Shown: positions 3,100 to 56,860 of the stretch, piece by piece
Numbering within the stretch: position 1 is the first letter of the stretch
Layout of the letters: the number at the start of each line of letters is the position of its first letter
Position numbers and translations under genes: made by a program
Assembly: GCF_000003605.2 (NCBI RefSeq)
Contig: NW_003148769.1
Coordinates: 918,122-975,555 of the forward strand
Source: Saccoglossus kowalevskii
Lineage: Eukaryota; Hemichordata; Enteropneusta; Harrimaniidae
Direction: 5' to 3'
Length of the DNA stretch: 57,434 bases
Notes under the pieces: model-generated
What the model was told of the DNA's origin: nothing
The model's database searches: none
The model's input: the letters and a program-made list of their open reading frames with translations, nothing else

Positions 3100-3300
3100 T
3101 GTCGCTTGCTTGAATTGCAATTGTAAATTTTGTCCAGTGTGAATGTTTTTTTTATGTGGTTTTATTTATTTTCTTTTTTTGTTTCATGATTTCTTGTGTA
3201 ATCCGCTTTTTAAATTGATGTACACATTTTAATCAGTACATTTTGATCGGCTGTAATCGCACCCTGTGTGCTACTTCTACGTTTCTTGATGTTAAATAAA

Positions 3301-3330
3301 GTGATTGATTGATTGATTGAGTGATTGATG
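3301..3330 (+). repeat. (ATTG)n tail of LINE
   Basis: Tandem GATT/ATTG units follow AATAAAG directly. A short microsatellite in this place is typical of the 3' terminus of CR1/L2-type LINEs, where it takes the place of a poly(A) tail. Confidence 0.8.
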
Positions 3331-6300
3331 ATTATTTGTCTGCAACATTCAGACACGTTCACAAGATTGTAATTGCTTCATACGATTGTTTTTTTTCCTA
3401 TCTGTTTGACCTTTATATCTAATACCACGCTATCATCGTACTAGCAGGTTGGTATATTGAACCAGACTGTGACCGTTTTTGAGATATTGCTGCATCGTGA
3501 AAATTAAACATTATAGTACGCTACTCGTCGCTGGATTTGTTCACACTACGTTGCGTTTTGTCTGTCAAGGTTTTATTCAATCTATCTCCCTGGAAATTTC
3601 TCGAAACTATTTATCACATATTATTAGGTCAAATATGCAGGTTATTGTCATTACCGTACAACGATCTCAGCTCGAATAAAAACAACTTAACATAGAGCGT
3701 AATGGGAAGGATCCTTTGCAACAAGAGATTTCAATATACACCAACAACGAGTAAATAGTCTCTAAGGGCATTGGGTTAATTGGTTTGAACATTCGAGAAC
3801 GATCTCATATCGCTTCTCGCACAAAGCCTCCAAACGAAAACGTCATCAGCAACGAGTAGCGCCTCGAGCCGCAACCGGATTCGTTTTCAGGTTCGTCTAT
3901 AGTCGGAGGTATCACTGCACACTCAGCGTATGCTGGTAAACGATCCAATTACAGCAGTAGTCTTTTTTCCATAAAATGAATATTTATTTCAAAAGAGGCA
4001 TGCAACGCGAATATTTTTCGTTGACGATTTTCGTTTTCGGCATTCTTATGCGAACATTGTTCAGATGCCGACGTTGGTGATACTGGTATTAAGCATGGAG
4101 CAGAATTTAATTGTAGCTTACTCTACGTGATATAGCCACAATGCCTATAGGCGCTTTGATAATCATGCAACGATCAAGACTACGGGATCTGAAGCCAGAT
4201 ACACTGTATAAACAGCGAAGGGTGCCTCACAAAGCTTCTCATTAGAATACATCACTGAGCGTATTTATGTACACTGTTTTCGTTGTGTGTTTCCTAAAAA
4301 TTACTAAAATTGAAATGATCAATCGTACTAAAGCTAATGCCACTACATTATTTACCAAACCCACAATGCTTTGCATCTGAAATGTTACATTATTAAGGTG
4401 GAATCTGGAGTTTAAAAGCGAAATTCCGTGACAGTCAAAACATATCGTATGTCACAATCACTTGTATTTTTCAGGCGACTGATTTCCCTTGTTTCAAGGC
4501 ACCGATTTTACTGGATCAATTTTGATCGTCTGTGTGTTTAGCATTAAATTATCACCGACAGTCTGTCTGAACCATAGAACGACCGGATAAGCTATTAATC
4601 TCGGATACAAGAAATGACTCTATTTGACTTCGTACGAGTACAACAAGGCTAATACCTCATCTATTAAATCCACTTAATTGGGAATAGAGTGAACAACCCG
4701 ACAAATGCATCTACAGCCATTTCAATCGCTGTCGTTTTTGTCGTTTTTTTTGTCTTCAATGAGTTCTACTCAGCCATCCCTGTCGCTGAATGGTATCGTC
4801 TTGCCCCCTCATCACCTGTGGATTTTCGACTCAATCTTATTTTGCTGTTTCACTGTATTTGCTATGCAGATGTTCTTGCGACCATCCGCAAGGAAATTAC
4901 TGCTTCAATCATCACTGCGTTCATCTACAGGTAGGTCAAAGCTGTTTTTTATTTGGCTTCATAGTGTTTCGCGATCTCGTCTCTATAGTTCAATTGTCAT
5001 GTCCCAAGCAGCCATGCCAGTTAAATGGTGTAAATACAACTCAGTGTTATCGAAAAGATTCATTGGTATGGGTTTAAGCATGACTAGTCAAATAGCCGTT
5101 TAAAAGCTATGCCATAACGTTATTTAACATGCCAGTATAAGAGAAAAGTAATAATGTGCGTAGAATATCAAAATGTTATTATAATGTGTTTCAACCGCCG
5201 TAATCGACTCCAATTTAAACTGATTAATGAACTATTTATGTCATCGCTATCATGTCTCTGAGTTAAATTAAAAATTGGTGGATGCTTCCGATTCGGGGAG
5301 TCTATCTGTGTGAGGAAAAGTACTGTGATATTAAATATATACACGTATATTAGTGAACAGAGGTAATTCTAAATATTGTTAATTCCATTTTCATTTCATT
5401 TTCATTTGTCGAAATGTCAATCTTTCCACGAATATTTGCGTGTGAATTGTATACAGTAAAAACATATTCTTTTGCAACTGGATTAATATTTTTTTACCGT
5501 GTATATATATTTTGATTCAATTGCATAATTATAGGTACCATTTCCCCGATGAATTTTATTTGACTAAAATCAAAATCAGACTTGTAATTAGTATCACTTT
5601 GGAACCTGTGCAGGCTGATGGATGAACATTCCGTAAAATCCCGCCCTCAAATGTTCGTGCGTCGATGAAAAGTAGTCTTCACAGATTTGTTATCTCTTAA
5701 TGATCAGCAACTACACAACCAAACGGAGTTGTTCAGTTGAATGACGTTGCTTACAACCATCTACGCCATTTTGGCGTCACAAAAAACGCTTCGTCGCTTG
5801 CGGGCGCCATTTAAAGAAGTGGATATTTACATCAAAATGTTCAAAGCTCGAAGGAAGATTGAACAAACTCATCTGGCTATCAATGATTATACAAAACCTT
5901 ACGCAATAGGTTAATATAGCAAGGAAGCATTTCATTTAAAAGTAATAAATCACACCGTTTACAGAGTTCGACCTTCAAATTCAGGCAAGTTTTTGTTTTA
6001 ATTGAATCTTCAGACTGGCGTAACGGATTGCAGTGACGTTGATCAATCACTTCAGGTGAGAGAACTGGCTCGCTTGAAGATATACTTGTTGTGAAACATG
6101 ATTATATTTACAGAGTGCTCTCACGCGAATCGTACTGTATTTGAGGAAGTATTTGTATTCTAGCAGCCCAGGAAATGACGATCTGAACTGTGAGTAATTA
6201 GGAGTGGCAGGTATTGAGACAGGTAATTTACGTGCATTCTTTTGCCTCTGGCGAAATTCTCGTACCATTATGTCATTCATCATTACATAGTTGCCGCGTC

Positions 6301-6835
6301 TCGCACAAATTGGCGATTTGCAGGTGCCTTGTCACGAACAATTAGTTAGATGATTTCAGGTTTACTCTCCAGAATATGTTTTTGGTACTCGCTTATAATA
6401 ATTTGCAAATAAGTGCATAATAATAGGACGCTTTGCATATAATATTTGTGACCCATGACATTAACCAGTCAGAGCCGATTATATTTCCCGCCACTTTCTG
6501 AAGATAGATCGTTGTTTACATTATTAGATATTATTTCATGTTAAACCTATGTTTTGCAAAAGTTGTTTTGGGTTCCCACACAACTGGGTGTGCCTGTTTT
6601 GGAGAATGTCGTCGAACTAATTCAAAAAAAGTTGTAAGCGAAATCGGAGCATGTACCCTTTATGCACCTTGAAAAATATTCCCTGTCCCATTAAAAAAAA
6701 AATCACTTGTGTTTCGTATTTTTTTTATAATCAACAAGTAATATTCTAAAACAAAATACTGAATATGACACTATTACACAGAATTTTGTAATATGAAAAT
6801 TTAGTCTCGGTGTGTACTAGTGTGTATTGCATTAC
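3331..6835. other. AT-rich sequence, no firm gene
   Basis: Apart from the pyrimidine-rich open frame at 4689-4930, which is listed separately, I see only short unconvincing frames. An attractive CAG...CAG|GTGAGA interval at 6014-6055 is too short to weigh. No mobile-element termini were noticed. Confidence 0.5.
4689..4930 (+). CDS. Possible coding exon, hydrophobic N-terminus (weak)
   Basis: An open frame starting at ATG 4689 runs into CTACAG|GTAGGT at 4930/4931, a good donor match. The predicted start, MNNPTNASTAISIAVVFVVF, would be a hydrophobic signal or anchor segment. Against it, the region is T/C-rich, so two other frames are also open (4705-5103 and 4790-5077), and a TTTTTGTCGTTTTTTTT run creates the hydrophobicity by itself. 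I recognise no family and no upstream promoter. This is probably chance, and is recorded because it is the most open stretch in the first 10 kb. Confidence 0.12.
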
Positions 6836-6927
6836 CATGCTGAGAATGGCGCCGAGCCAAGTTGTTCGGTGAAATCGCTTCAGAGCTTGCGCAATGGACC
6901 CTCTGGCTAAGAGGTCGCCGACGATGT
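6836..6927 (-). CDS. Candidate internal exon, unknown product
   Basis: On the - strand, GGATTTCAG|ACATCG (acceptor) and CTCAGCATG|GTAATG (donor) bound 92 nt that are clearly more GC-rich than the surroundings. The frame is open and reads DIVGDLLARGSIAQALKRFH, a balanced protein-like composition. I do not recognise a domain. It lies in a 96-codon open frame whose other parts look non-coding. The acceptor has a poor pyrimidine tract. The call rests only on composition and splice-like borders. Confidence 0.17.
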
Positions 6928-9897
6928 CTGAAATCCTAACATCCACACAAGCACAGCGTGCAGTCAATAAAAGTGATTGGTGTAATCTTCTACAAATGCA
7001 GATTCTCTTGGTTAATCGATAACCCCTTCTGACCACAATTTCCTTATAAATGAAATCATTTCAAATGTCAACCCGCTATGTCATCAGTTGGGAAGACTAT
7101 TAATAACCATAGATATTCACTAAATGTCAAATGGGTAAAGACTGTGCCGCCCTCGTATTTGTAAACGTACCCATTTCTATGTTTGTTTTTAAACCGCCCC
7201 AAAACCATAATACAGTTTTGTAATTATATGTAATCAAACGTTCTGGTTAAAGGTACTGATTACTCGCGAAAAATTTAAATGGCACTCATTTCTACCTTAA
7301 TCTATTATAAATGTAATTTAAACTCCATTGTGCGCGCACACAGACGATGTATATTTTAGTTAACCATAACATTTGTCGCAATTACAAGACCTTACTAGAC
7401 ATGGAAATGACGTACACACAGAACGTAATACAGAGCGTAAAACAGGTCGAATGTTGACAACTTACAAGTTCAACAACGACTGCCAACATTCTCTGAATGT
7501 GCGAACGGTACCAAAATAAGACAGAATACATAATAATACTTGATAAACGTTTGCGTATGTTGCAATTACGGAATGTTGCTAAAAACATAGAACTGATGTA
7601 ATTGCAACCATTAATGAAACGAGGTCAAAGGTCATTGGTTACGGCCATGTTTTCATCTCTAAGATTATTACCTGCTATATTCACATGAAACAATACATTA
7701 TTACCATCACAAGCACTACACATTACCGGAATGCATGCATGAAACTTCTCCACTGGCTGCTGTGTCCTGGTGACAGGTACTTAAATTTTACAAGTTAACA
7801 AAAATTACAAAACAATTAATTCTATGGAGATTATTTACAGAAATATAAGTTGTTTTCCTCATTTACATATGTTGCATTGAATGGCTTAATTATGTTTAAG
7901 AAAATTGTATATGTTCAAATTTCGCCGTGTTAGCACATATATGTTGTTTATCAGACATTCTTGATAGGAATTTGTAAATGGAATTGTCATTTCAATAATT
8001 ATAATCTTCTCTTTTTATCCCCGCGATAAAGCTAATATACATTTCCAACTTGCCGCAAATTGAATACCTGCCACAGAATGTGTATATTGTCGTAATTTGG
8101 AACCTCACATAACTCAAAACAAGGAAATCACACGAATTGTTATTACCTGTGCGATATTAAAAATAAAATTAGTTTGTAACAATATCGAGGTTGTGAATTT
8201 AAACTAATACTGTTTGCAAAATGGGACAGCAAATATCAGACTGCCGCAGGTTGTTAACATGGCGATAACAGCCCACAGCAATAGTATGATATGCGACAAT
8301 GATCCTGCTATTGAGAGAATTGACGTCAGTATCCTATTTTTTTTTTGTATTTTAGTAAGCTTTATCGTTTAATTGGAGAAAAGTGCTGTACAATATCGCT
8401 TGTAATTAGGTCTGCCACAGAAGCGTGGTACATTAAGTGGAACCGTTATTCGAATCACATGTTTTATGATGGAAATTTGAACGCTTGAGTTCCAATTTTG
8501 AATTTCCTGTGAGTTATATATTAGACCAGGTATGGTCGTAGCCATCTAGCATATATGTTTAACATTGATGGCATATCTCACTTTTCGGATTTTGAATTTA
8601 TTCACTCTTCAATGCTTCTGATATTGAATTACGGGATTGAAAGGTCTCGTAAATAATGTATCCATCAATGGATCTTGCAATTAACGTTCATTACTTTGAG
8701 TGCGCCCCTCTCAAAATTCGTTCTGACCCATTTAGTGGAATACTTTACATAAGCATTACAAATTGGCCTGGAATGTAATCTGAGCCCAGGCTAAAAACAT
8801 CGCGTAACATCGCATTATTATGCTCTAAACGTTGTAAGATTACATGATATAATTGTATGCATATTACCAACATATAACAAACGTAACACAGGGATTCGAA
8901 ATCATAATTACGTCAAAGCGATTCGCGGCTACGCCAAAATGCGTCAGACGGAGACAGCTCGTGCTAGCGTGCAGATGACGCGCAAGCCAAATCACTGTCC
9001 CCATAGTCAACTCTATACGTACAAGGCAAATTAAATTCATAGTCAGAAAGACCAAACCAGTTACATTTGTCAATAATATCTACTGTTATGTATACTCGGA
9101 GTAACAAACATCACACCACATGATACACTCAAACTCAAAACCATGACAAAACGCTTTGCCACTGTAAGGCAACGTACCCCCACTACGTTATACTGACTCT
9201 CCGTCCAAAAAAGACGATTAAACTACATGTAGTGTATTTCATATGATATCATTTAGCTTTACTGAAAAATTATACAATATTCATTATTCACAGTGCAGAC
9301 TAGCAATTTCCAGGAAATATAGTAGAATCTTCTGGATTAGTCAAATTGCGTTTAATGCGTAGTACACGCTAATGAGACATACTTACAAACGCCCGTAGAA
9401 CATAAATATGGGCGCCTGTTGTTAAATATTACATGTGAGCATATGTCAAACATACTTAATTTATTCGTTTTTTTTAAATTGTACATAGGTGAGCGACTAT
9501 AATCCCCGTCTCGTGTATCACATGAACTCAGTGTTATTAAATGTACTCCGACACATCGCAGACAAGCACCTACAATCTCAATTGTGTACTTAATCACTTT
9601 GGTATTTTAACCTGACCAACCTCGTGGATGAGGTCAACGAAATTACGATAATTCATCAGCCTACTGAACCTCAAAGTAGAACATGCTTGTGCCCCACTGG
9701 TCTCCTTTATTAACATCTGTCCGCGTAACTGTTGCCCCCGTCTTATTTAATACTCAGATTCGCCAATTTGAGTCGCACATTTGTCACGTTCGATATACTT
9801 AGTTATTGCTTCTAATCACGCTCGCATTGCACTTTTTAGTTCGCATTCAACTCAACCATGCAAATTCTACATTTTATTGCATCTTTTTTCTCTACAG
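6928..9897. other. AT-rich sequence, no gene seen
   Basis: No LINE, LTR or TIR hallmark was seen. The perfect CRE-like octamer TGACGTCA at 8321-8328 is the only regulatory-looking site, and it has no gene context. Confidence 0.5.
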
Positions 9898-21479: not shown

Positions 21480-23109
21480 ATAAGGGACATTGTAAATATT
21501 AATATATCTAATGAATATAAAGTGTGAGACTATACTGATTCTCTGTGTACCATGTCACTAAAATATCTTGACGTTTGAGGAATATGCTCGGCAAAAGTCA
21601 TTTTACCATCATATAAATGTCCAATAATATGTTTAATAATATTTTGTTGTCGTTAAATTTCAGTAAGTCTTTTATATGTAAGATGTGTGCGCCACATTGA
21701 TAATTTGATTTGTATAGGCGTGATGTTTTGATGAATTATCAAATATATTTACACTTCAAATTATATTGACGTAAGTTATATTATATCGTAGATGTTTTGG
21801 GAAGATTTTCATTGTCACTGATATTAAAGCTATTTTGATTTATGTTGATTAGATATTTTTGAAATTTTAATGAAAATCCAACATGTAGGAATATCCTCAA
21901 ACTAATTAAATATTGTTAGCCTTTTAACCGAGGGAGCCAATGATCTCGTAGATTATTCTAAAATATGTATTTGGTCGTATAATTATCAACATGAATGTAA
22001 ATACATATATGGGCGTTATTACTTGAATTATAATTCATATTAACTGATGTAATTTGACTCCTCCAAATGGTTATCAGGATACTGATTAGATTAGACCGGA
22101 ACACATTTCTGAAAAAATACACAGCCCTATCCAATGATATCACATACCAAGTTATTATCAAATATTCTCATGGACTAACTTTTTTTCACTTTCTTGCAAT
22201 AATATCATAATATAAAACGAAAGGGTAAGTGTTTGATATTCATATTTGATTTAAGAAAAAGTACAATGGACTTGACTGTGAACTCTAAATGTGACTCTGT
22301 TTCTGTAGCATGTAGTACGTTTGTTTCAAATATACGAGCACCTTTATGGCTTCAAATACCTATTACCTTTATCTATTACTTTTTGTGGCGAAAGTAGATA
22401 TTCCAAATTCTCAATTGATTAATACAATCTACCGTTTCCTTATTTCGAATTCCAGTGCTGACCAAATTGGATAATAAGCAAATCTAAATTTTAGTATTGA
22501 ACATACTTTCTGCATTAACGATACGTGAATATTGATCCGGGAATGAACTACTAAAAGCATGGTCGGATATAACACGTATCAAATTTCAAGTAATGACGTA
22601 AACCCAACGGTATCATTCACATATAAAAAGGCACATATGTATTTGAGAACTCAGAATTCTATACCTCAAGGCCATGGTATTGGATATCTAACAGTGGAAG
22701 TGTGAGCAATCTTATGTCAAACCTTTGGGTGTGGAACTCTTTTTCCCACCACAACACAATATACAATATATGATTATTTCATCAGAAAAAAAAATGAAAA
22801 TACAAGTAGTTAAGTAGATAAAAAAAATAAAAAAACTGATGAGAACTGTGAAAATAGTTCTACTGAACTAGTCTAGTCCACAGCCCTGCCATTGTAGTAA
22901 ACTAACGTGTATAGGTCATTGACAGACAGAAACTATTTATAATTCTAAATCTGTGTTAGGAAAAACAAATAGATGAAAATACAATTCATCAATAACTATT
23001 TATCAAAAAAATAATAACCAAGCAACCAGTTGATATAATAATTAATTAATTAATATAACTAAAATACTAATAATAGTCAAGAAAGATGGATATGCCAGTT
23101 AACTACTTA
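21480..23109. other. Very AT-rich sequence, no gene seen
   Basis: The stretch includes poly(A)-rich patches near 22.8 kb and an (AATT)n run near 23.04 kb. The latter probably belongs to the 3' untranslated tail of the - strand LINE that ends here. Confidence 0.5.
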
Positions 23110-23490
23110 TGAGATGGGTCTTTAAATCTGATTTAAATTGATTTCTATTATGTGAACTTTTTAATAAAACTGTGAGGGAGTTCCAATGTGTAACAGCTGC
23201 ATATTTAAAATTATGCTGGGAAATGGACAAATATAATTTAGGAATTGACAGGTTTCCTTCAGTTGTTGCTTTAGTATGGTAGCTATGTGACGGATTGCTT
23301 GCATAATACCTAGGACTTCGGGCAAAACGGAGAGTTTGTGAATATCGAGAATTGCAAGTTGGCGAAAAAGGGGAGCAGAGTGGGCATGAAAGTCGGAAAA
23401 AGTGATAAGTCGAACTACCTTTTTTTTGTAGACAAAGAATTGGCTCAAGTAAAGTTGGGTAAGTGTTTCCCCAACGATGTGTTATGAAGA
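23110..23490 (-). mobile_element. LINE (non-LTR retrotransposon) ORF2 C-terminus, broken
   Basis: Read on the - strand, the blocks come in the order expected for LINE ORF2 after the reverse transcriptase. First is WGNTYPTLLEPILCLQKK, matching 'WGNTY.T.L.PI..LQK..'. Then comes KVVRLITFSDFHAHSAPLF, matching 'R.ITF...HS.PLF..L.IL'. The end reads FKYAAVTHWNSL, matching 'F.Y....WN.LP', and continues to KSDLKTHLISS and a stop. At least two frameshifts separate these blocks. Only the 3' part is present, as in a 5'-truncated copy. The clade is probably in the CR1/L2/Rex-like range, by inference. It is a different family or copy from the LINE at 2.5-3.3 kb. Confidence 0.75.
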
Positions 23491-24341
23491 AAAACGCTTT
23501 CCCCGGGGATACAGTGGAGATTGCACCAGTCTCATGATTGGTAGACCCGAATCCGACTATAGATTGAACACGAAAAATGATCTACTCTTATGCCCGACGA
23601 TTGTGTCAAATACTCAATGAAATGGATAAGCATGTGTTCTTATGTCCTTATGTCCCACAGCGACATTCAATGTCCTGAACTGCACAAAATATCGTATAAA
23701 AAACTTAGGTTAAATGATCCGTGTTAAATATTAATTGTCTCGCACCACATGTGGTCCTCTACTTCAGACATAATGATTGTTTACTTTCGTAATTATGTAA
23801 ACGGTATACTTCTATTGTAAATCCTACTCGCATGTCTGATAGATCGAAATTATAATATGTAAAGATTAACATTAAGATTAGCTGTACATTCATATTATAT
23901 AAACAACGTTTAGAAAGGCAAATCTAACATATATTAATTGAATTTAAGCTTTGACGTCCCTCCTGAATTTATCAAAAACAGAATTTGAAGAGCGTTTTTT
24001 TGTTGGTGATATTATTATTATTTGTCTAGCTCGCTTCTCTCCACAGTTGAATATGACCTAATTACTATTTTTCTGTTCTTACCTTCTTATGCAATTTAAT
24101 ATTGGGATAGCAAATATCGTTTCTAATACTGGATTGCTGAGATGTTATCGGAAAAATGTCAAATGATCAGAACTGAAAGATATTTAATGTTTGTGACATT
24201 TTAAAAGTGCCATCAGCAATAATAATAAGTATCATCTTCAATATGTAGAACAGACAAAGCTAATACTTAGTCAAAATAAGCATATACATCTGTCGTTTGT
24301 CTGTCTGTTTGAAAATATTAGTACTATTACTAATATAATTA
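23491..24341. other. AT-rich sequence, no gene seen
   Basis: The part next to the LINE (23491-23600) may still belong to it, but I recognise no further protein block. Nothing else was identified. Confidence 0.5.
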
Positions 24342-37789: not shown

Positions 37790-38245
37790 CTGTGAAGCGA
37801 TTACATGGATGCCGGCTAACATTGAATCCTGACAAATGTCTTATCCAACACGGATACGTTAGTCCCACGGAAAACAGAGACACTGTGAGACCTTATGAAC
37901 ACTCGCCATTCACATAAGGTTCTGAACAGAAAACTGCATTTCAAGCGTTGACAAAGATCCTTGTCAGGGCATGCTCACTTACCTATTTTTCTAAGAATGC
38001 GCCTACACCGTGATAGCACATGCTAGTTCCGTTGGATTGGGAGCAGTGTTGGTGCAAGTAAAAGGATGTTGTGTGTGTTATGCAAGCCGTAGACGGACAT
38101 ATTATAAATGCCGCCGAAATTATCAGACAAAACGTGATGTATTAGAATTTGTATGGGCATGCGAAAGATGCACTGCACTAGTACTTGGCATAAACTTTGA
38201 AACAGATCATCGTCCATTAGAAACAATATCCAAGATTTAAACCAT
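37790..38245 (+). pseudogene. pol remnant: RT end and RNase H
   Basis: RLHGCRLTLNPDKCLIQH near 37798 matches the thumb-side RT block 'L...GL.LNP.KC'. Near 37930 AFQALTKILV matches the connection block before RNase H. From 38010 the frame is open and reads VIAHASSVGLGAVLVQ, CYASR, VWACERC and TDHRPLE, the classic gypsy RNase H blocks. The first catalytic Asp of 'DAS..G.GAVL' is His here, so the enzyme would be dead even without the breaks. The RT palm with its YxDD motif is absent. Confidence 0.85.
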
Positions 38246-38424
38246 GCCTTGATTTAAACTGATGACGAGATGACAGAGCTGAGGAAGACTTTGGAAGTGT
38301 ATATGGTAACATATATATATAATTGGAATTGCTTGGATCATCTCAAAATGTTATTTCATACTAGTTGATACTGTGATAGAGAAATGGTTTGACAGCTTAG
38401 AAGAAATCCTCAGTCGACATAGAC

Positions 38425-38972
38425 TTTCAAAAAGCATCTGGTTCACATTTTAACTCTGATGAATGGGCCCAAGCAATTGGATATGTTGAACATCAAAACA
38501 AGTCACTGATGAAGATAATCTGTATTGCAAAAGCAGAACAGTTAGATTGGATGAAAGAGCTCCTAAAGCATCTAACCAAATACAGATGCATTGACTATGC
38601 TACTGTAGATGGAATTCGCCTGCTGAGATGTTGTTCAATCGTAAAATCAGAGGCGAGCTACCAGATTTCAAAATGTATAATGGTAACTATTTGGAAGTGC
38701 TGATCCAGGAGCTGAGCAGAAAAGGCCAAGTCAAATTATATGTAGATGGTTGTCAAAATGCCCGATGTTCTAATGTTTCACTCAAACAGGAGAAAGGAAT
38801 CAAGTTCTCAACACAGTTCAGCAAAGTACCTCACATAGTTATCAGTGAATCAGGCAATAGTATCATTGTTGAATCACCCGACGGTGCTTTGTATTTTAGA
38901 AATACCACACATGCTAGAAAATATATATCTGTTGATACCAGTTTGAACGGGAAAGGTGTGATTGATAGCTAG
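38425..38972 (+). pseudogene. pol remnant: integrase, C-terminal half
   Basis: Blocks match gypsy integrase: GSHFNSDE, then directly WAQAIGYVEHQNKSLMK (usually tens of residues apart, so an internal deletion), then DWMKELLKHLTKYR, MLFNRKIRGELPDF, and a tail with GALYFRNTTHARKYI. The Glu of the 'G.VE.QN' block is kept, but the DNG-type Asp before GSHF is lost. A frameshift lies near 38625. The last frame runs about 16 bases into the 3' LTR. Confidence 0.85.
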
Positions 38973-41016: not shown

Positions 41017-41651
41017 GTAACCGACATCACCTTTCAAACGTAGTCTGCGTACATTTCGCGTCTGCGCATGTGGATTACTCTACTGCAAATGAAGTGGTCG
41101 ATATCTCAAACATCTAACAAGGTATCAAATTTCGAACGTTTGATGTGCAATGCATTTCAATGTCTTCTTAGATGTGTATTACAGTGGAATGAATAGACAC
41201 AGACTATAGTTTGTTATACATATGTATTAGGTGTTTGAAGAGTTTTTGCAGAATTGACAATCAGCGAAAAAAACAGTCAAATAAGAAAAATATTTGAGGT
41301 AAGATTAAATTCACGTAACAGAGTATAAACAAACTTTTTTGAAGATTGTCAATTTGTGTCTTTCGTCTGAATCTATAAGCCTATCATAATTAATTTTTGC
41401 TTAATGTTTTGGATGGACGAAACTAAAATTATTATTCAAGCAATGGTTACTGCAAAAAAGCATACATTGTCGTGCTCGTGAATAAATCACAGCAAGACGC
41501 TTTCATTATGCGTGTACTTGAACGCAGTTTATCGGCGCGTGTTCATTCAAAGACACTCTTCATTGAATCGCAAGCAGCATTTCCATGTTAATTTTGAATC
41601 CAGCCGATTAGATACATATTTCATTGCTACAGATATAATTAGTATGCTGTG
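41017..41651. other. AT-rich sequence up to the gap
   Basis: No feature was recognised. Long frames reported across the gap are artefacts of the undefined bases. Confidence 0.6.
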
Positions 41652-42439
41652 NNNNNNNNNNNNNNNNNNNNNNNNNNNNNNNNNNNNNNNNNNNNNNNNN
41701 NNNNNNNNNNNNNNNNNNNNNNNNNNNNNNNNNNNNNNNNNNNNNNNNNNNNNNNNNNNNNNNNNNNNNNNNNNNNNNNNNNNNNNNNNNNNNNNNNNNN
41801 NNNNNNNNNNNNNNNNNNNNNNNNNNNNNNNNNNNNNNNNNNNNNNNNNNNNNNNNNNNNNNNNNNNNNNNNNNNNNNNNNNNNNNNNNNNNNNNNNNNN
41901 NNNNNNNNNNNNNNNNNNNNNNNNNNNNNNNNNNNNNNNNNNNNNNNNNNNNNNNNNNNNNNNNNNNNNNNNNNNNNNNNNNNNNNNNNNNNNNNNNNNN
42001 NNNNNNNNNNNNNNNNNNNNNNNNNNNNNNNNNNNNNNNNNNNNNNNNNNNNNNNNNNNNNNNNNNNNNNNNNNNNNNNNNNNNNNNNNNNNNNNNNNNN
42101 NNNNNNNNNNNNNNNNNNNNNNNNNNNNNNNNNNNNNNNNNNNNNNNNNNNNNNNNNNNNNNNNNNNNNNNNNNNNNNNNNNNNNNNNNNNNNNNNNNNN
42201 NNNNNNNNNNNNNNNNNNNNNNNNNNNNNNNNNNNNNNNNNNNNNNNNNNNNNNNNNNNNNNNNNNNNNNNNNNNNNNNNNNNNNNNNNNNNNNNNNNNN
42301 NNNNNNNNNNNNNNNNNNNNNNNNNNNNNNNNNNNNNNNNNNNNNNNNNNNNNNNNNNNNNNNNNNNNNNNNNNNNNNNNNNNNNNNNNNNNNNNNNNNN
42401 NNNNNNNNNNNNNNNNNNNNNNNNNNNNNNNNNNNNNNN
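41652..42439. other. Assembly gap (788 N)
   Basis: A run of undetermined bases. The sequence on its right side is repetitive, so the gap probably spans a tandem repeat that could not be assembled. Confidence 1.
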
Positions 42440-42600
42440 CCCAACTTAACATTAATTACTGAAACAACAGCATAGCGGCCCCCAACCGCAACTGACGCAA
42501 TACATTCCACCCTTCAAAACACCCCTCGCAACACAATACATAGCAACCGTAACATAATTACATAGCGACCGCAACATAACGCTACACAGCCATAACATAC
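42440..42600. repeat. Nearly G-free, degenerate tandem repeat beside the gap
   Basis: The + strand is made almost only of A, C and T. A unit close to ACATAGCRACCGYAACATAA recurs with drift: CATAGCGGCC.CCAACCGCAA, ACATAGCAACCGTAACATAA, ACATAGCGACCGCAACATAA, ACACAGCCATAACAT. It reads as the edge of a minisatellite that continues into the gap. Confidence 0.65.
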
Positions 42601-50819: not shown

Positions 50820-53768
50820 GACGTGTTCCTCGACTAGAATATACAGCGGAAAGACGAGTTCGCCTGCTAATAATCACGCTTCATATGACACACACCAGAC
50901 GGTCTCCACTTATGTAAAAATGTTTTATTGATTCTCCACTGGCAGTTAAAACAACTTGACCGCTTTCATAACCGACTCATTCGGGAAGAATTCCTAAGTG
51001 GCGATAGATTTAGGTGAGTAGTTATAATCATAATTTGATTTTACTGTTAATCGGGAAATTTTGGAGTGAGATTAGTAACATTTGGGAATATAGAAATCGA
51101 TGGTAAGTTAGCCATATATAATTTATTTATATTTGATTATAAATTTAATTTGCTAATTCAAATTAAATTAACTCAATCTCAGACCGCGCTCCGGATTTGC
51201 GTTCAATTTGCAATTGAAATTGTTTGCCAACGGTGCACACCTTTACCCCACTGTACGTTTCTCAGTGCACAGTAAAAACAATATGGAAACAACTGTCTTG
51301 CTCATGTTTTGCTGTACTAGTAAAATATATATTTGTATAATGCATAATCAAAACTTGCTATTTTATAAACACGATGTTACGAAAACCTGGACACATGAGT
51401 CTAACTAAAGCAGCCATCTTGTTGCGTGATCAGGGGAGTTCAACCGATCACACAATTTCTTAAATACTGTACATATGAAATACTCCCACAAAACCTCGGC
51501 GGAATGCTATGCGGTGGCATATAGAATAAATACAATTTATATCGAAAACCAACTCAAAATCAAATTTACGTGTTAGTTTGCATGTGTGCGTTTTACTTTG
51601 AATATAAAACAAATCTGAGCTTACAGTAAACTATGTAGGGGTTAGCTCCCTCGTGTATGGGACAGAATTATTGAAATATTGAAATTATTTTCCCATGAAA
51701 CGCAATACTCCGTGTTTATCTAATTTTGGATGTGTAAGCGTAGCATGTGTTTTATTCATTGCAACGTGTTAACGACATAACCAAGTCATTTGGGGTCGAT
51801 TTATTTGACGTATTCACTACATCATCCTCGGCATATGACCCGAGTAAATACATCATATAATGATTACAATACGAAGGACCTATACATCTTACTTCAAATC
51901 AACCAGACCCTCTCGGCGAGATGAAAGATGAGAAAAAGTATTCAATATTTTTTTCCCGCGGTTATTGTGACGTTCTCAATAATACCCTTATCATGTTTTT
52001 TTTTGTGTGTCAAAACTAGTCTCACAATACCCATGGCAATTGAAGCGACTAGTATGTAACAATTCATACCACTTAGATCTTATGTTTTCAGTGTGCCGAG
52101 AGTGTAAATCACGGTCGGTAACACGAGCATAACATGCCGGATACGATAAAATGAATTAAACGAAGTGTTTATTTGACGGAAGTGTCTAGTGTGCTGCCAT
52201 TTTAAATGGTTAAAAGCCTCGGCACGATATATTATAAATGTTTCAGTCTCACGCCGCATTAAACTACCAACAACCGATAATGTGACATAATTAGCCCCAA
52301 TTTACAAATAAAAGCGATGTTTTATTTTAAACCGAATAAATTGCATCGCCACAGTACCAAATTTAATAGAAACTGTGCATAAAAATAACTCATCTTAGTT
52401 TTCAATTTAAATCGGATCTTCAATTTTGAAACGCGGTGTCTGGTGATCATACAATCGGGGTTTCTTACATTCATGTTTATTGCAAACGAGCTTATAAGGC
52501 GCATGTGGTCCCTAGCAAAAAGTATTTTCAAAAGTAGGGTACCTTCCTGACTCTGTATGACCTATTGCCTGTGAGCACATATTATGATTGTATTTAAACC
52601 ATGGATTTTACTAGTGGGAAATGCGTTGTGGCTAAAATTTCCTCATACACAAGTTACCAGAGTCTTGATCTTGATATGAAATGCCATTCCGACATGCACT
52701 GTACGATTTCGTACCTCCGGAACCCACTACTGTGACACTGTATCCTTCGAAAATCTTAGTCTATATTTACAGTACTAGCCGCAAATGAAGGTAATCACGC
52801 GTAACGGTTAGTTACTAGTCATCGGTACCCGGACAGTGCGGATTTCAACATTTAATTTAGCAATTCATTGCACTTCGTTAATCACATAGCGCAAACATTA
52901 ACTCCCATTGTGCGTGTGTGTCTGGGTGTACACGGGTGTATACTCCTATAAAACAACATTCTTTTCATATTTACCAAAACTTTATCGTATTTGTTTTAAT
53001 TGTCAATAAAAAATAATGTATTGCCAATTCGTGCCTGAAAACAACCTGATCGAGCTGGCTACATCGACTGCGAACTGAAAACACACTTCCTCTCGACCCC
53101 CCCCCCCAAAAAAAAACTATTTCCAATATTACCACGATGCGTTATGCGATTTAATTTCACGGACCACGATCCAGCAAAAGCAATAATTAAACAAAAGATA
53201 TATACTTGCTAGGTAGTCTGTGGGAATGGACAATACTAATATAATAGCTAAGTTACGTGAGCATGGTCGATTTCATTTTCTTAGTATACCCTTGTTTGTG
53301 TCGTCTTCAATTGTCCATTGCGGCTCAAGGATTACAATTGAACTGTCATGTCACATCGGAAGACGAATCAAACATGACGTCACGTTGCTATTTAGGTTTG
53401 GGTCATTATTTCTACCCGGCGTGGTGAAATTAGAGAGAAAAACAAATGCGTCGCTGGGAAAATATGAGCAGCGCTCAAGCTTGTCTGCATAATAAATTGC
53501 ACTTTACTCACCAAACGAAGATAACAGTCTAAAGTAGCCACCCACCCAAGTTAAGGACAACTGTTTTATTAATACTGAGAGTGCAGTACAACGTAGCGGT
53601 GGAACATACGGGCGCGGCCCTCTGTTGGGGAAGCTTGAGCAATAACATTGATATATCATTTACATAAAATTCAACGCCGATATATGACGGGGTCCTACAT
53701 TTTAGATTTTCATAAAACTTAAACTTGACGCTGCTCATGACACCCAATGGAACACGTGGGCGTAACAC
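50820..53768. other. AT-rich sequence, no firm gene
   Basis: There is a C11A9 run at 53097-53116 and a perfect TGACGTCA at 53375-53382. Frames of about 90 codons at 53220-53492 (+) and 53529-53795 (-) have mixed composition but no recognised domain. The second runs into the left end of the foldback element. Confidence 0.45.
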
Positions 53769-53802
53769 TGCATTACAGCAACCGAGGTAGCCCACGTTAT
53801 GA
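53769..53802 (+). repeat. Left TIR of foldback element
   Basis: 34 bp with GCAACCGAGGT and CACGTTATGA as the conserved cores. Similarity to the other TIR stops sharply on the outer side, which defines the element's end. Confidence 0.8.
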
Positions 53803-53810
53803 TATTAATA

Positions 53811-54124
53811 TTATATTATAAATATTTTAATTTCTATTTTCATTTTAAAATCAAATTTCATTTCAATATCCATTTTCAAATCAAATTTTATTTTCAAAAC
53901 CATTTTTGTTTTAAAATCGAATTTCATCTTCAAATCTGTTTTCGTTTTTAAATCCATTTTCGTTTTAAAATTCATTTCAATTTTCGTTCTCAAATTGATT
54001 TTCGTTTTAAAATACGTTTTCATTTCCAAAACCATTTTCGTTTTAAAACCATTTTCATCTTGTTTCCATTTTCATAATCCTTTTAAAACTATTTTCATTT
54101 TCATATTGTTTTCATTTTTAATCC
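53811..54124 (-). repeat. Left minisatellite arm
   Basis: Degenerate units which, read on the - strand, approximate AAAATGGATTTTAAAACG (18 bp, with 12- and 24-bp variants). In one - strand frame the units are open and spell K/D-rich six-residue repeats such as DLKTKM and DFKTKM, because the period is a multiple of three. Confidence 0.85.
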
Positions 54125-54290
54125 TTTAGCCTATGACCCCAGTCACGTGATCTACCATTATCCAGTCATTTCTTGGCGGTTGCAATTTTCTACATAGAAC
54201 TTTGGCTAGTACACTTGCTTCTGTTGTAGTGTATACATTTATTTGGTAAGTGTCTTCTTAGAATTTAGATTAAAGGTCAACGGACAAAAA
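54125..54290. other. Unique centre (loop) of foldback element
   Basis: Ordinary mixed sequence without the 18-bp unit. No open frame of note, no similarity to a transposase. It would form the loop of the fold. Confidence 0.7.
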
Positions 54291-54735
54291 TTAAAATGGT
54301 TTGGAAAATGAACTTCAAACCGAAAATGGAAACAAAGTGAAAATGAAAATGGGTTTAAAACGAAAATGGTTTTAAAAAATGAAAATGCATTTAAAAAGTA
54401 AATGGTTTTGAAAATACAAATGGACTTCAAAACGAAAATAGAAATGGTAATTAATTTTAAAAAGAAAATAGATTTGAAAATAAAAAAACGAAAGCTAAAA
54501 GTGAGGATGGATTTAAAAACTAAAATTAATTTAAAAACCAAAAATGGATTTAAAACGAAAATGACATTTGATTCGAAAACAAAAACGGATTTGAAAATGA
54601 AAACGAAATTTAACTTAAAAACGAAATGGATTTGTAATTGAAAATGAAATTCGATTAAAAAAACAAAAATGTATTAAGTAAAAGTACAATGAAAATGGTT
54701 TTTAAAATGAAATAAAAATCAATATTTAAATATGT
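54291..54735 (+). repeat. Right minisatellite arm
   Basis: The same unit in the opposite orientation (AAAATGGATTTTAAAACG on the + strand). A frame at 54402-54641 stays open and reads MDFKTKIEM, INLKTKNGFKTKM, TDLKMKTKFNLKTK. The arm is longer than the left one and the units differ, so the arms have not been recently homogenised. Confidence 0.85.
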
Positions 54736-54752
54736 TTTTCTTCTTCTTAAAG

Positions 54753-54786
54753 TCATAACGTGAGCGACCTCGGTTGCCGTACTGCA
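54753..54786 (-). repeat. Right TIR of foldback element
   Basis: It starts TCATAACGTGAGCGACCTCG and ends TGCCGTACTGCA. It pairs with the left TIR with four mismatches. Confidence 0.8.
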
Positions 54787-56860
54787 TTGGTGTAGTGGAG
54801 TATAGTGAATAGTTACGCGTTACTTATTAACACGGCCCAAATTTGCATACGGCTTATTTGCATATTCGCAGTTGTCACGAACTACACGTCCCTAGTGGGT
54901 GATACATAACAAGTTGTTCTGTCGCTTTTAATACTTTTAATAACATGTTTCACGCCCTGAATATCACTGAAATGTTCAGTTAATTCTATTAAAGATGTAT
55001 TAATTTGATTAAAAAATAGCTTGTTCATTAATGTCAAGGCATGAGTTTAATATATAATAGTGTTAAAAAACAGATTAAGTTTGCATTCTGAAGTTTTTTT
55101 TAATTTTAATCTTTTCTAGGCAGAATTATTATCAAGATTTCATCAGAAAACGCATGAGTAAAACAAGTTTAATATTGTAATATTGTCCTCGGCATTAATG
55201 CATATCGTGTGCTATTTATACCAGTAACCTCACTCAATCGCAACATTGCCCTCCTCAAGGAAAATGTCTATATTTACAAGTATATAACGTGTTTTGGTTG
55301 CGAAAACCACTTTTCTTGGAAACAACTTAAAGCAATGACTCGAGAAAGTAGGAAGAATTATCACATACTTCGTAGCTACTTTGTAAAATCGAAATTAGAA
55401 GGACAGCCAAACACAAAGCCATGTACGATTATAACCGCGTGACGCACCGAATCAGGAACGTATTTCGAGAATTAGCATACCAATACAGGAAGCGTAATAA
55501 CGACTTGTTTAAATCCCAGTACAACTGACACCTGTAAACACGTGCTACATATGAAGGCTTTTAATGGTGATTATATTGAGGCATTTTAAATTGAACAATA
55601 TTTGACTGTGCACGACAAGAGCGTGACGGTGATTCGAAATTAGATATTAACCTTACGAGTAAACACTAACGCTGTGTTTGCAACATAACTTAATCTACAC
55701 CTCCAGACCGTATCGTGAATGAATAAGTTTCCGCGAGTGTTACATTTGTAAACGACGCTACTCAAATGTCTCTTCCAAACCGTACGAAAATCTTGCTTAG
55801 GCAAAAGCAGTACATCTTCGACATCCAAGTATCGACAAAACATGGTAAAAACAAATTTGGTCCCTTATAACTGGGAGTGCACATTTTAGTAATAACTTAC
55901 CTGATTGTGTCAACGTTAGTACTTAAAATTGTCATTCTAAGTCCACCCGAGGTATTAATTGGTAAGATTTAATTTCGGAGCGGAGGCCATTGGGTGAATT
56001 AAGAATGTTTATTTACTCACCAGTTACTGTAGCTGAATGTGCCCGCGGGCTAGTGGTATAGTTTCGGACTGCAATGCATACCGCAATACATGTACTCATG
56101 TAGAAACAACCGTTATTTTAAACTTACCTTCAGTGACATAAACATGAATATAATAAAATATTCATCACTACTTGCCACAAAATTAGTCCTATAATTCTTT
56201 TATGTTCTATCTTTGCCTATTAAAAGTTCGGTTCTCACCACTGACACTAAGAACTGTGCACGGGAATCTGGTATCAGTTGACCAGCTGGTAGATAGGATG
56301 AGTGGCTCGACATTGATATCGTTCACGATTTCTTTCCTTCCTATTGAAAACGTGTGTTGGTTATAGCGCTGGGTGTGACGGAACGGATAACCTATACAGG
56401 AAACTAAGTCATATCAGTAATGGATTCAATCCGAATTCAACAGAAACACGTGCACACTTGCGCCAATTAGAGAATAAATGACGACGCCAGCCCATTACAT
56501 GGCAGTTACATTTATGCACTCATTATATATAACCTTGTTTCAACGCCCGCAGGTAACAAGATTTGAGGAGGCCACAAACAAACCTATACGCACCCCATTC
56601 AGAACCATTTGAGGGCAGTATCCAAACTTTTCATTTTATTCGTCTTTTGTTTTTCTCAAGTGAATTTAGATTATTTGAACTAAATACAATTTAACTAATT
56701 AAATTTGAAATGTTTTTGTATAGAGGATTGAATTTAATTTAATTAACGCAATTAATTAATCTCCCGTTTTACTCTGGAAATTGTAAGCCGCAGTATTTCA
56801 TTTAAACAGTAAGGCCCAAGGCAAGTAAATCTGCAAATAAGTTTTATTGGTATCCAACTA
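54787..56860. other. AT-rich sequence, no gene seen
   Basis: A 77-codon frame at 55209-55442 contains a fairly protein-like KQLKAMTRESRKNYHILRSY but has no recognised domain. A tRNA-like GGGCTAGTGGTATAGTTTCG at 56046 was examined and rejected. Confidence 0.45.

Follow-up and report, generated by a model that had tools for sequence, protein, structure and literature searches.

The transposable element described here lies in a window of 57,434 nucleotides (the whole stretch of Saccoglossus kowalevskii DNA that was analysed, on contig C3895 of the 572-Mb assembly), and it is a member of a dispersed family of non-autonomous foldback elements that transposes, or has done so, as evidenced by the occurrence of its ends throughout the genome, the 6-bp duplications that flank them, a preference for particular targets, and flanks that are unrelated to one another. 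The element probably belongs to the IS3EU superfamily, having kept the end, the arm, and a promoter-like or first-exon region of a larger transposon and lost its coding interior.

The first-pass annotation placed a foldback element at 53769-54786, and an element is indeed situated there, although these limits run five bases too far into each target duplication and the true ones are 53774-54781, a length of 1008 bp (Table 1). The inverted ends, the opposed degenerate 18-bp arrays, and the unique centre that were described with it are all confirmed. Local alignment of the inverted arms scores 165, compared to a mean of 32 (sd 4, maximum 51) for 200 dinucleotide-shuffled pairs, and autocorrelation peaks at a lag of 18 in either arm (0.62 in the left, 0.53 in the right). 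A unique centre is likewise present, but its size is nearer to 150 bp than to the 165 bp first proposed. The element thus has the feature that typifies the foldback class, namely a unique centre enclosed by long inverted arms that consist of tandem repeats. Comparison of its two ends gives 26 matches in the first 29 positions and 30 in the first 35, and the left end begins with TACAG, one base removed from TACGG. Folding prediction for the single strand yields a single long hairpin, imperfectly paired, of -170.9 kcal/mol, a value computed without a shuffle control. Rfam at its gathering scores gave no match across the window, and no tandem arrays other than the element's own were seen in these 57 kb. 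Elsewhere in the window there are retroelement-like fragments at 37995-38969 and 23102-23581, recognized by eye from RNase H-like and LINE-like peptides, and a run of N (X in the translations) at about 41650-42450.

Table 1. Features of the window element and of its target site
Feature	Position	Strand	Remarks
Left target-site duplication	53768-53773	.	CTGCAT, exact 6 bp
Left terminal inverted repeat, TACAGCAACCGAGGTAGCCCACGTTATGA..	53774-53808	+	Identity to the window-type end consensus 85.7% (35 positions)
Left arm	53809-54119	+	Degenerate 18-bp minisatellite, T-rich orientation, unit approximately TTTTAAAATCCATTTTCG
Centre	54120-54265	+	Homologous to the promoter-like region with first non-coding exon on contig C88; roles putative
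CACGTG within the centre	54144-54149		
Splice-donor-like GGTAAGTG within the centre	54245-54252		
Right arm	54266-54746	-	Minisatellite of the left arm in opposite orientation, A-rich
Right terminal inverted repeat, TACGGCAACCGAGGTCGCTCACGTTATGACTTTAA (minus strand)	54747-54781	-	Identity to the window-type end consensus 94.7% (38 positions)
Right target-site duplication	54782-54787	.	CTGCAT

Searching the genome with the element's DNA identified at least 134 matches, a lower bound in that 40 of the 79 candidates were scored. A 22-base core of the end, allowing two mismatches at most, occurs 88 times (53 on the plus strand and 35 on the minus strand) on 73 contigs, whereas a reversed-pattern control gave no matches. 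Neighbouring ends within 10 kb form 14 pairs, every one of them inward-facing and enclosing between 356 and 2233 bp, compared to the approximately 0.04 pairs under 3 kb expected from random placement. We examined 38 regions, the window itself and 37 others fetched at sites of DNA-search matches, and at the thresholds used both ends are found in 12 (with up to six errors), one end in 23, and neither in three. Among the 12 two-ended copies the target duplication is an exact 6 bp in eight, matches at five of six positions in three, and at four of six in one; the fit permitted a shift of up to three bases per end, and the unshifted position was the best in 11 of the 12. L040 is the copy whose duplication reaches five of six positions only when its ends are shifted by three and two bases. 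The 250-bp flanks of the 12 elements have no match among one another, which rules out segmental duplication as the means of their spread. One flank of L040 lies within a 264-bp tandem repeat that is also present in L009 and L048, and a 34-bp piece occurs elsewhere in L026; the repeat occupies 2365-2994 of L048, and three or more of the fetched regions contain its units (L048, L009, and L040 among them).

The target sites are themselves distinctive. Taking one end per locus at 33 loci, the numbers with G or C at positions one to six of the target are 25, 0, 23, 24, 1, and 31, a symmetric strong-weak-strong-strong-weak-strong consensus to which eight of the 33 conform at all six positions, against 0.2 expected. 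The proposal that the element belongs to a mobile and dispersed family, with several loci sharing its ends but differing in length and bearing short target duplications, is therefore upheld; its end core is neither peculiar to this locus nor restricted to a single segmental duplication. Of the 12 two-ended copies, 10 carry arrays on each side, and L018 and L044 on one side only. Of 18 one-ended copies checked, seven have a run of N within the fetched stretch and one more is cut by the end of its contig, and with assembly gaps lying just inside many arms, families of this type are readily overlooked. The flanks of L026 are unique, and a genome search did not recover an empty copy of its site.

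The family is not uniform. Ends with four or fewer substitutions number 46, all but one of which have TA as their first bases, and their consensus is TACGGCAACCGAGG. Six of these are window-type ends, which contain CACGTTATGAC and are associated with the 18-bp unit; the other 40, pooled as a second type, contain CACAACATGGCATTTTATAAAACC and are associated with a 19-bp unit. In this second subfamily 29 of 39 end matches have an identity of 95% or more to the end consensus, and the arm units listed have approximately 73-86% identity to the consensus of their own array. The arm has a recognizable inner limit, a GTTGAC edge, which is seen in C88, in L012, and in the window's right arm (where it reads CCGTTGACCTTTAAT on the arm's own strand), is altered in L009 and L011, and is missing from the window's left arm. 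The window element may be an inverted dimer of a 5' end, although by eye the GTTGAC edge closes both arms of L014 and L027 inward, as would be expected of ordinary long inverted repeats. At those two loci the inner edge of the second-subfamily arm (approximately 2385-2430 of L014 and 3515-3560 of L027) is TTGACCTGTGACCTCGCCCTCTGACCT, with TGACCT repeats that we take to resemble nuclear-receptor half-sites and that are possibly part of a promoter.

The superfamily assignment begins with the termini. Fungal IS3EU families are described as having a 6-bp target duplication, terminal inverted repeats longer than 30 bp, and ends of the form TAYGG..CCRTA (PMC12730594), and a further account gives TA..TA ends and a duplication that is usually 6 bp, and presents a single tree that includes IS3EU together with IS481EU, IS3, and integrases (PMC10045372). 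The present family has the same 6-bp duplication, terminal inverted repeats of over 30 bp, and TACGG..CCGTA ends, with TA..TA at the extremities. A possible second likeness is found on the linked contig C88, where an integrase-core transposase is opposed by an alpha-kinase exon, an arrangement also described for the TET+ fungal IS3EU families, in which an alpha-kinase gene is opposed to the transposase (PMC12730594). The window copy departs from IS3EU in that it is non-coding and in that its arms are a minisatellite in a foldback layout. We note that the assignment is by termini, target duplication, domain, and gene pairing.

Contig C88 has an exact window-type end core at base 6 and an arm at 64-632, and the region past the arm is common to L009, L011, and L012. 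Within this shared region the CACGTG is absent from L011, a CCAAT motif is absent from the window, and, as for the splice donor, the window, C88, and L012 have intact copies and L009 and L011 altered ones; we interpret the region as a putative promoter with a first non-coding exon. Open exons with canonical splice sites extend from approximately 3130 to 7000, downstream of the promoter-like region and in the right orientation. The exon with GPNWFWHLDGYDKL matches Pfam rva_4, which we take to be a candidate IS3EU domain, above the Pfam cut-off (39.9 bits, E 4.8e-10), and the exon with LLYVYMPLLEDELN scores just under the cut-off of 26 (24.4 bits, E 2.7e-5); an exon with the third and last catalytic acidic residue was not found on C88. 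A search of the genome with rva_4 that made no use of the ends returned 59 matches, and C88:4784-4975 is among them (39 bits, E 2.2e-7). With the transposase as query, no relative was confirmed in IMG/VR (two pattern matches, neither a relative). The exact end pattern had zero matches there, and the four chains returned by a sequence search of the PDB, at E 0.54-0.93, are not meaningful.

The alpha-kinase exon opposed to the transposase is at C88 13081-13296 (E 6.1e-17). An alpha-kinase profile has 12 matches in the genome, and C88 is the only contig with both an rva_4 and an alpha-kinase match, which weighs against a general pairing of the two genes in this genome. The kinase sequence of C88 was seen again only on C2097, with 100% identity over 950 bases (among the 40 of 863 candidates scored), and judging from this identity it may be one host locus represented on two contigs. 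On C532 an end core with two mismatches lies 6.3 kb from an alpha-kinase match reading inward from that end, and no array was seen in the approximately 120 bp read inside it. We therefore regard the gene pair on C88 as supporting the IS3EU assignment and not as proving it. A second end within six substitutions was not found on C88, the 3' end falling outside the contig, which stops 50 bp past a dispersed repeat of approximately 170 bp. This repeat (C88:13414-13581 and 38 further matches) has copies that are about 90% identical, and it lies near the point at which C88 and C2097 diverge.

An alternative is that the foldback family is moved by some other, unseen superfamily with 6-bp duplications (GingerRoot-like, hAT6, IS481-like, or another), and that C88 is a chance neighbour. 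C88 is the single contig on which this end type is tied to a transposase, no complete autonomous copy is available, and suitable superfamilies exist; GingerRoot has 6-bp duplications and ends that are mostly TA..TA, and the account consulted draws no separation between it and IS3EU (PMC10045372), and there is a hAT6 with 6-bp duplications (PMC12730594). However, the terminal TACGG fits the TAYGG of fungal IS3EU, and C88, L009, L011, and L012 have in common not only an end but also an arm and the promoter-like region, which on C88 precedes IS3EU-type exons in the right orientation, and we consider the alternative unlikely.

The first-pass annotation likened the element to FB and Galileo, and the architecture is indeed similar. 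FB of Drosophila melanogaster has short tandem units in its inverted arms, but it has a 9-bp target duplication and a different unit and termini. Galileo, a P superfamily element of Drosophila, has long inverted arms in a Foldback-like build, many defective copies, and a palindromic target preference, but its target duplications are 7 or 8 bp (as far as described in PMC4168063), and its transposase is of the THAP/P type, compared to 6 bp and rva_4 here. Tetris of D. virilis, a proposed Mutator element, is a non-autonomous foldback with tandem repeats within its inverted arms, but the units are approximately 220 bp and the duplications 8-10 bp (as far as described in PMC4079207). That the family is a true FB- or Galileo-type foldback, of the Mutator or P superfamily, is thus very improbable in spite of the shared build with its long, internally repetitive inverted arms, as the termini differ, the TACGG..CCGTA ends and 6-bp duplications being an IS3EU signature, and the linked transposase is rva_4 and not THAP/P or Mutator; the length of the target duplication in itself rules out membership. 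We give equally little weight to a reading without transposition, in which the stretch is a static inverted minisatellite or belongs to a segmental duplication. Slippage alone could grow arrays, and many loci have one end or none, but the exact 6-bp duplications at unrelated sites and the target preference refute this reading in practice, the 14 inward pairs also speak against it, and an N run accompanies seven of the 18 one-ended copies checked.

Within the favored reading of the window element as a non-autonomous IS3EU foldback, derivation by internal deletion is the simplest account. The centre of the window element can be aligned with the C88 region as far as some 20 bp downstream of the splice donor, and piecemeal with L009; its right arm matches the end and arm of L009 and of C88 colinearly, at 76-77%; and it is shorter than an IS3EU-type transposase gene. 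No IS3EU-type peptide was found in the foldback copies, the matches in a tblastn search of L009-L049 with IS3EU-type proteins (E <=0.01) being confined to C88 and to a relic of a different IS3EU element next to L021. This relic, at 10-1409 of L021 on the minus strand, is a broken IS3EU-type transposase situated just outside the foldback copy.

We propose that internal deletion of a long-armed, transposase-bearing IS3EU element would have produced the window copy, which would then be moved in trans. In the complete element, splicing would proceed from the arm promoter, using the donor GTAAGTG, to the ATGGATGATATC exon. An integrase-core rva_4 transposase made elsewhere would bind the conserved outer 20-60 bp, excise the element, and join it to the target strands with a 6-bp stagger. 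Movement by the transposase of another element had been suggested at first pass, and this is supported. Arm length could change through slippage or through unequal exchange between units, and the opposed arms could putatively be extruded as a hairpin or offer extra binding sites.

Foldback elements are mostly thought to be Mutator elements, with exceptions (according to PMC4079207), of which Galileo in the P superfamily is one (PMC4168063). If the IS3EU assignment is correct, the family would add an integrase-core transposase to the enzymes that make foldbacks, would support a repeated origin of the foldback build from different enzymes, and would provide a concrete path from transposon ends to dispersed minisatellites. 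Foldback elements apparently arising from the little-studied IS3EU group have no earlier description in the literature searched, in which no paper was found that joins IS3EU with foldback or minisatellite arms; four genome papers contain both of the words IS3EU and minisatellite, and in the available portions of the oyster satellitome study IS3EU labels two satellites and foldback appears in a reference only (PMC8268682).

Minisatellites are found at other IS3EU-type loci in the genome. At the loci fetched around the 10 best of the 59 rva_4 matches, arrays of at least 100 bp are present in seven, with six different units, and the unit lengths at L050-L059 include 21, 22, 26, and 30 bp. Three of the seven (L056-L058) are one family, and inspection by eye shows L057 and L058 diverging no more than two bases from TATAACTATTATATTCTGATCA, with a 21-bp array of that tip beginning beyond this point. 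IS3EU-type families with a terminal array are thus two only, the window family and that of L056-L058. A small control for arrays gave one of 264-bp period in the 9.9 kb of L048 and none in the window beyond those of the element. We raise tentatively, as a possibility somewhat short of an even chance, that IS3EU-type transposons in this genome generally carry minisatellite arms, each family having its own unit beside its terminal sequence, and in one case derived from it, and that foldback derivatives and new minisatellites have arisen from them repeatedly. Examples of IS3EU-type transposase genes, from several families, with arrays next to them are 2125-3431 of L055, 1-712 and 2610-3090 of L056, and 181-637 of L058.
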